Below are positions 24,280 through 24,420 of a stretch of 25,582 nucleotides of DNA, one piece after another. Made by a program: the position numbers and the translations under genes. Origin of the DNA: a virus. A model generated the notes under the pieces. It saw nothing but the letters and a program-made list of their open reading frames with translations. It did no database searches and was not told where the DNA came from. Position 1 is the stretch's first letter. Each line of letters opens with the position of its first letter. Location of the stretch: the IMG/VR virus record IMGVR_UViG_3300050821_018259, positions 1-25,582 of that record; one strand, written 5' to 3'.

Positions 24280-24420
24280 CACGTCGGGAAACCCATGAAC
24301 CGGGCCATTCTGGCGGCTGCTCTAACCAACTGAGCTACGTCCAGCCGAAGCCGAACGACGGGACTCGAACCCGCGACCTGCTGCTTATGATGAAGTATCC
24401 CGGATCGACACCGCGACGTG
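24280..24420 (-). ncRNA. Y-RNA-like RNA 3 with a permuted tRNA-like domain (YrlA type)
   Basis: This is 141 nt, closed by CACGTCG/CGACGTG, then a bulged C and GG:CC, with the shared CGGTG and GTTTCC boxes. The interior has, in order, a T-arm (24374-24358), an 8-bp acceptor-like stem capped by UUCG (24357-24338), the 2-nt linker TA, and a D-arm GCTC/GAGC with a GG-containing loop (24335-24319). The flanking GCCGC and GCAGC pair at four of five positions like an opened anticodon stem. No CCA or anticodon is present. This order is the one expected of YrlA tRNA mimics. Confidence 0.85.

Follow-up and report, generated by a model that had tools for sequence, protein, structure and literature searches.

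The third Y RNA of this virus sequence, here called unit C, belongs with a probability of about 0.85 to the YrlA-type Y RNAs and would form part of a phage Ro60 ribonucleoprotein, as judged from its sequence and predicted architecture. It shows a tRNA-like module in circularly permuted order (T-arm, acceptor-like stem and D-arm) enclosed by a Y stem, and lies directly upstream of a gene encoding a protein with TROVE and vWA domains, on the same strand, which is the Ro60/Rsr adjacency of YrlA-type RNAs.

The Y RNA cluster and the anatomy of unit C

The window, which is the whole stretch of DNA analysed (25,582 nucleotides, a virus record of 25.6 kb), contains genes encoding a Mu-type portal protein and a terminase, and a minus-strand tRNA cluster; tRNA genes are abundant in it. 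A 799-aa ORF at 516-2915 (-) shows a MuF-like head domain (weak, sub-threshold) and a Pyr_redox_2 domain (113 bits), which is a pyridine-nucleotide-disulphide oxidoreductase domain. A histidine phosphatase domain protein (PF00300) is encoded at 6230-7129 (-), with phage structural genes around it. Two HNH endonuclease-like ORFs (PHROG HNH families), at 24619-24978 (-) and 25341-25568 (-), are beside the Y RNA cluster and the tRNA genes.

Three Y RNA units (A, B and C) are located on the minus strand between a promoter-like site and the Ro60 gene, and all of them show a basal stem and the UACUUC strand motif. The promoter-like site ends at 24600, ten bases ahead of Y RNA A, and two such sites occur in the stretch versus 0.2 expected from shuffling. 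In the Ro60 protein both the TROVE and the vWA domains exceed the Pfam cut-offs, and the residues of the DxSxS motif, D316/S318/S320, are invariant in the alignment. The 71-nt piece containing Y RNA A (24521-24591) has a fold of -33.3 kcal/mol (z -3.61). The features of the region, from the promoter-like site towards the Ro60 gene, are:

24600..24628 (-): promoter-like TAGACA-17-TATACT immediately ahead of Y RNA A, a consensus match only
24521..24590 (-): Y RNA A, without tRNA module; basal stem CGCCGCA/UGCGGCG
24430..24511 (-): Y RNA B, without tRNA module; UACUUC motif; basal stem CGAGGCG/CGCCUCG
24280..24420 (-): Y RNA C, the third, 141 nt, probable YrlA-type with circularly permuted tRNA-like module (sequence, fold, sub-threshold Rfam YrlA match)
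24414..24420 (-): basal stem of C, 5' strand CACGUCG; 7/7 pairs with 24280-24286
24399..24403 (-): inner Y stem, 5' strand CCGGG; 5/5 pairs with 24300-24304, 7/8 including flanking bases
24392..24397 (-): conserved UACUUC motif, present in all three Y RNAs and in most related units
24380..24391 (-): anticodon-loop-like AUCAUAA, then 3' anticodon-stem strand GCAGC (24384-24380); 4/5 pairing with 24313-24317
24358..24374 (-): T-arm GCGGG-UUCGAGU-CCCGU; stem 5/5, loop UUCGAGU, covariation in homologues
24338..24357 (-): acceptor-like stem CGUUCGGC-UUCG-GCUGGACG, 8 bp, UUCG-closed; 8/8 pairs
24319..24335 (-): D-arm GCUC-AGUUGGUUA-GAGC with GG in the loop and UA (24336-24337) ahead; stem 4/4
24313..24317 (-): 5' anticodon-stem strand GCCGC; 4/5 with 24380-24384
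24300..24304 (-): inner Y stem, 3' strand CCCGG, by direct pairing
24280..24286 (-): basal stem of C, 3' strand CGACGUG, by direct pairing
22824..24257 (-): phage Ro60, 477 aa (TROVE and vWA); Pfam TROVE 1.3e-10, vWA_Ro60 2.7e-7, PHROG 850 RNA-binding protein 2.8e-28

The 5' part of unit C consists of CACGUCG, CGGUGUCGAU, CCGGG, A, UACUUC, AUCAUAA, GCAGC and AGGUC, followed by the T-arm, and the 3' part contains the acceptor-like stem, UA, the D-arm, A, GCCGC, CAGAAUGG, CCCGG, UUCAUGGGUUUCC and the terminal CGACGUG. The 5' and 3' ends form a long stem (7/7 basal and 5/5 inner pairs), as in YrlA-type RNAs, and the T, acceptor and D arms show the YrlA-type permuted order. The sequence-only reading had placed a third Y RNA exactly at 24280-24420, and each helix it named (T-arm, UUCG-closed acceptor-like stem, TA linker, D-arm with GG) is present base for base; the opened anticodon-stem strands, GCCGC and GCAGC, pair at four of five positions as it had proposed. 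UUC in the T-loop and uridines in the D-loop are found in the sequence, and the letters of both loops are those of the tRNA elbow. The unit has no CCA, also as proposed, because its acceptor end is a hairpin. The claim that it has no anticodon is less secure: AUCAUAA, with the spacing U33-CAU-A37-A38, directly precedes the 3' anticodon-stem strand, so the absence is uncertain.

Model matches, relatives and covariation of the acceptor helix

The Rfam YrlA model (RF02553) matches unit C over its full length (1-114/114) with 36.5 bits and an E value of 1.9e-6. Since this score is below the RF02553 gathering cut-off of 69 bits, unit C is classed by its architecture and not under the Rfam family; its relatives, at 33-48 bits, a range that includes the score of unit C, are also sub-threshold. 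The YrlA-type fold has -48.4 kcal/mol, 2.9 above the minimum of -51.3 kcal/mol. Free folding does not single out unit C (z -0.02) and, with z about 0, was set aside as evidence. A strict module search, requiring 5/5 pairs in the T stem, 7/7 in the acceptor, 4/4 in the D stem and a loop of at most 15, shows one match in the window. Shuffling both strands 100 times gave one match in all (about 0.01 expected), a figure that ignores the position of the module inside a Y-type stem beside Ro60.

Chen et al. (2014) reportedly found Y RNAs in the neighbourhood of Ro60 in over 250 species of bacteria and phages. Relatives of Ro60 were drawn here from phage records, IMG/VR and GTDB genomes; the genome-contig search gave no matches with a single Ro60 protein as query and gave matches with the alignment as query. 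The loci form 221 groups by shared 31-mers, so that counts per group are approximate. Modules were collected by the T-arm, the D-arm and the UACUUC-type motif only, ignoring acceptor pairing, and several per genome were found in some phages. The T and D stems having been used in selection, the acceptor helix is the only independent covariation evidence. Among 120 non-redundant modules, acceptor pairing has a mean of 6.16/7, versus 3.25 for mismatched partners. In the 64 aligned modules with acceptor loops of 4-6 nt this helix is 94.4% paired and shows double changes at all seven pairs, with a covariation score of 0.764 versus 0.200 when shuffled and at most 0.154 with slid partners. The 94.4% is slightly favoured by the omission of eight of the 72 modules in this range, including those of L021 and L036 that overlap native-order units (see below); the full set of 120 is untrimmed. 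The acceptor loops of the relatives are frequently the stable tetraloops GCAA, GAAA or UUCG, and the inner Y stem shows a mean of 7.1/8 pairs versus 6.3 in the null. The analysis itself establishes anatomy, synteny and covariation. The earlier suggestion of a YrlA-type permuted tRNA mimic is borne out by the structure, the position upstream of Ro60, the E value of the YrlA match and the covariation of the acceptor helix in homologues.

The anticodon region divides the modules into two classes. Class 1 (the window, L023, L019, L075, L089 and others) shows anticodon-stem strands which flank the module and run into the Y stem, with a mean of 3.9/5 pairs versus 2.25 for mismatched strands; 25 of 33 have four or five pairs, and in L023 the opened strands pair 5/5. 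Class 2 shows an anticodon-like hairpin after UACUUC, present in 81 of the 120 modules (about two thirds) at a criterion of at least 4/5 pairs. The absence of an anticodon is therefore not general among related units. In the 41 modules with a 5/5 hairpin stem, U33 is found in 41, R37 in 39 and A38 in 35, and there are 23 different triplets; the register search gave a small bonus to U33/R37/A38, unlikely by itself to yield 41/41. The idea that each mimic is a copy of a specific tRNA is unsupported: the triplet agrees with the nearest real tRNA (anticodon masked) in five of the 41 (shuffled mean 2.4, P 0.064). As the triplets do not track the tRNA type of the body, no unit-by-unit mimicry is claimed.

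Two origins from tRNA genes have to be weighed against this architecture. A decayed ordinary tRNA gene, or a chance join of two tRNA fragments (a T-arm and the next D-arm) near Ro60, would suit a tRNA-rich window, since tandem tRNAs place a T-arm ahead of a D-arm. Strands of two tRNAs are not expected to pair, however, and here they pair 8/8; the module is moreover enclosed by the basal and inner stems, and neither ARAGORN nor Rfam (RF00005 cloverleaf) calls a tRNA at the unit C locus. Because the sealed acceptor helix covaries in relatives, this origin is very unlikely. No tmRNA match was found at unit C either. A permuted tRNA gene of the algal or archaeal type, whose RNA is closed into a circle on the anticodon side and then cut at the acceptor to yield a functional tRNA, would account for the 3' half upstream of the 5' half and for the retention of AUCAUAA, and ARAGORN calls tRNA-Met on the re-ordered sequence of unit C. 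This call is not used as evidence because the tRNAs nearest to the body of the unit are Arg and Pro, not Met, and it is not diagnostic because most re-ordered modules get some call. The acceptor lacks CCA and is sealed by eight base pairs and a UUCG loop, in a position where relatives often have GNRA or UUCG tetraloops; this argues against such a gene, and no bacterial permuted tRNAs are listed in PMC4033280; we regard it as highly improbable.

Some related units appear to be annotated as tRNAs. GenBank shows tRNA-Thr, tRNA-Ser and tRNA-Gln at L005 2810-2877, L006 2766-2840 and L009 2128-2195, in Xanthomonas, Brevundimonas and Caulobacter phages, and these overlap Y RNA 5' strands and T-side modules and look like misannotated Y RNAs. 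In CcrColossus (L009 1700-2930) at least six UACUUC-type Y units are located upstream of Ro60, and one of them shows a T-half with a long variable arm (CGTCCGAAAGGGCACG).

Candidate tRNAs in native order with an inserted Y hairpin

A search for the reciprocal arrangement yielded 17 units with good support, distributed over 16 phage groups: L004, L010 (crAss001), L011 and L012 (crAss-like cr106_1 and cr112_1), L021, L036, L056, L077 (two units), L180, L183, L184, L185, L187, L190, L194 and L228. These units show, in order, the acceptor strand, UA, the D-arm, the Y 3' strand, a loop, the Y 5' strand with UACUUC, the anticodon region, the T-arm and the acceptor strand. The anticodon arm is the site of the Y hairpin, which in some units separates nt 26 from nt 27 and so leaves an anticodon-like arm intact. 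The first scan gave many false matches, in which the D-arm of one permuted unit was joined to the T-arm of the next, and units were kept only if they read as Y strands between, with no inner T-arm. A second match in L180 (4825-4948) is doubtful, with 5/8 pairs in its Y stem, and L003 shows what by eye resembles a degenerate native-order unit but did not pass the scans. L228 contains both the native-order and the permuted forms. Among 80 cellular loci no convincing native form was found, and the permuted form occurs in 52; as this cellular sample is taxonomically narrow, the native form is not claimed to be exclusive to phages.

Since selection used acceptor pairing and reading by eye, the independent support for the native form consists of Rfam matches and pairing of the Y stem. 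The Y strands show a mean of 7.2/8 pairs versus 6.0 in the null, a doubtful eighteenth unit included. The Rfam tRNA model, which was built without Y RNAs, matches ten of the loci (L010, L012, L021, L036, L077, L184, L185, L187, L190 and L194) above its cut-off of 29, at 41-50 bits, and treats the Y part as inserted sequence; crAss001 (L010) has 46.6 bits, with 82 nt replacing 11, and L012 has 50.2 bits. The units of L004, L021, L036 and L056 are followed by ACCA, and the crAss-like ones by AC, like many ordinary tRNA genes of those loci. The sequence-only reading had taken homologues with CCA and an anticodon arm as signs of a decayed normal tRNA. Relatives in native order with ACCA do exist, but the Y-RNA stem inside them makes them chimeras and not intact tRNAs from which unit C could have decayed.

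The units at L010 4672-4814, L011 4538-4678 and L012 5190-5330 are downstream of Ro60, and the annotation tables consulted show no tRNA at these sites, though L010 and L012 exceed the Rfam tRNA cut-off. The TROVE protein of crAss001 is predicted among the early genes (PMC8375218). In other crAss-like contigs tmRNA genes (Rfam 52-92 bits) are near Ro60: L190 2580-2960, L184 2373-2727, L187 1519-1869 and L183 1593-2117.

The native-order form, a tRNA with an inserted Y hairpin, is probably real and undescribed; no published description of it or of the anticodon-like hairpins was found in a literature search that did not extend to key primary Y RNA papers and reviews. Y RNAs and tRNAs could then be read as one circle, which phages open in either of two places. 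The window unit and known YrlA have the opening in the Y stem and a closed acceptor, and the 16 phage groups have the opening at the acceptor and a closed Y stem. It is unusual for one RNA chimera to occur naturally in circularly permuted versions, and the wider survey has more weight than the element of the window. If the form is true, such RNAs could undergo processing, CCA-tailing or even charging while bound to Ro60. Because the tRNA model recognises the native-order form, its processing as a tRNA, its charging and its binding to Ro60 are open to testing in crAss001, a phage in culture; such tests would tell whether the body, the ends or the anticodon-like arm of the mimic is what counts for Ro60 function.

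Proposed function and known systems

Ro60 binding, PNPase recruitment and base modification would be expected of unit C by analogy with described YrlA systems. The basal stem and the conserved internal-loop strands would bind the phage Ro60 ring, and the distal module would fold as a tRNA body, with a T-loop/D-loop elbow, an acceptor helix and its ends within the Y stem. With its ends in the Y stem and the acceptor end sealed by the UUCG loop, the module would be readable by tRNA-binding proteins but could be neither charged nor used in translation. The Y RNA may in this way recruit to Ro60 those host enzymes that recognise tRNA, chiefly the exonuclease PNPase, and direct them to structured RNAs during infection. 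This role as an adaptor between Ro60 and such enzymes is the best supported mechanism, and we would give it roughly even odds; no partner enzyme was found in the window fragment.

The same anatomy would also suit a decoy, which rivals the adaptor step only: the tRNA-like module on Ro60 would bait anticodon nucleases of the host, or other defence enzymes that target tRNAs, as a sacrificial or inhibitory substrate, and protect phage and host tRNAs during infection. The anticodon-like hairpin of about two thirds of the related units, the U33-bearing class 2, is needless for a PNPase adaptor, several modules are present in some phages, and competitive inhibition of an anticodon nuclease has been proposed for YrlA (PMC7790460). 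The same work reports that YrlA escapes cleavage by the RecA-dependent nuclease, a result with which inhibition is still compatible. Since the anticodon strands of unit C are split and form no closed hairpin, and triplets disagree with the nearest tRNA type of the body (5/41, P 0.064), we consider the decoy rather unlikely and keep the adaptor as the preferred mechanism.

YrlA contains D, T and acceptor arms, is a substrate of DusA and TruB and binds PNPase (PMC8394870), and it is carried by phages (PMC7765460). PMC11472068 already characterises the bacterial Y RNA 6CU1 as a circularly permuted tRNA, which makes unit C a divergent phage addition to a known architecture; it extends YrlA-type RNAs to another phage and, with its relatives, provides a large covarying set for modelling. 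YrlA (RF02553; Salmonella YrlA structure 6CU1) and unit C share the basal Y stem, the T-arm, the closed acceptor stem-loop, UA, the D-arm, anticodon-like strands running into the Y stem and the position adjacent to Ro60/Rsr. Unlike YrlA, unit C is phage-borne, shows AUACUUC where the YrlA consensus has AUGCUU, and scores below the family cut-off. The Deinococcus radiodurans Rsr/Y RNA/PNPase complex (RYPER) shows, like the phage, a Ro60 ring protein with Y RNAs near its gene, and a tether function has been proposed for it; phage Ro60, with 477 residues against the 535 of Rsr 2NVO, is the smaller protein, and its link to PNPase is presumed by analogy. The permuted tRNA genes of red and green algae and Thermofilum also have the 3' half upstream of the 5' half, whereas unit C shows a tetraloop-sealed acceptor and a Y stem at its termini, and no tRNA product is expected. 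Like unit C, tmRNA shows a tRNA-like domain on a non-coding RNA, but in native order, with CCA and an mRNA domain, and without Ro60.
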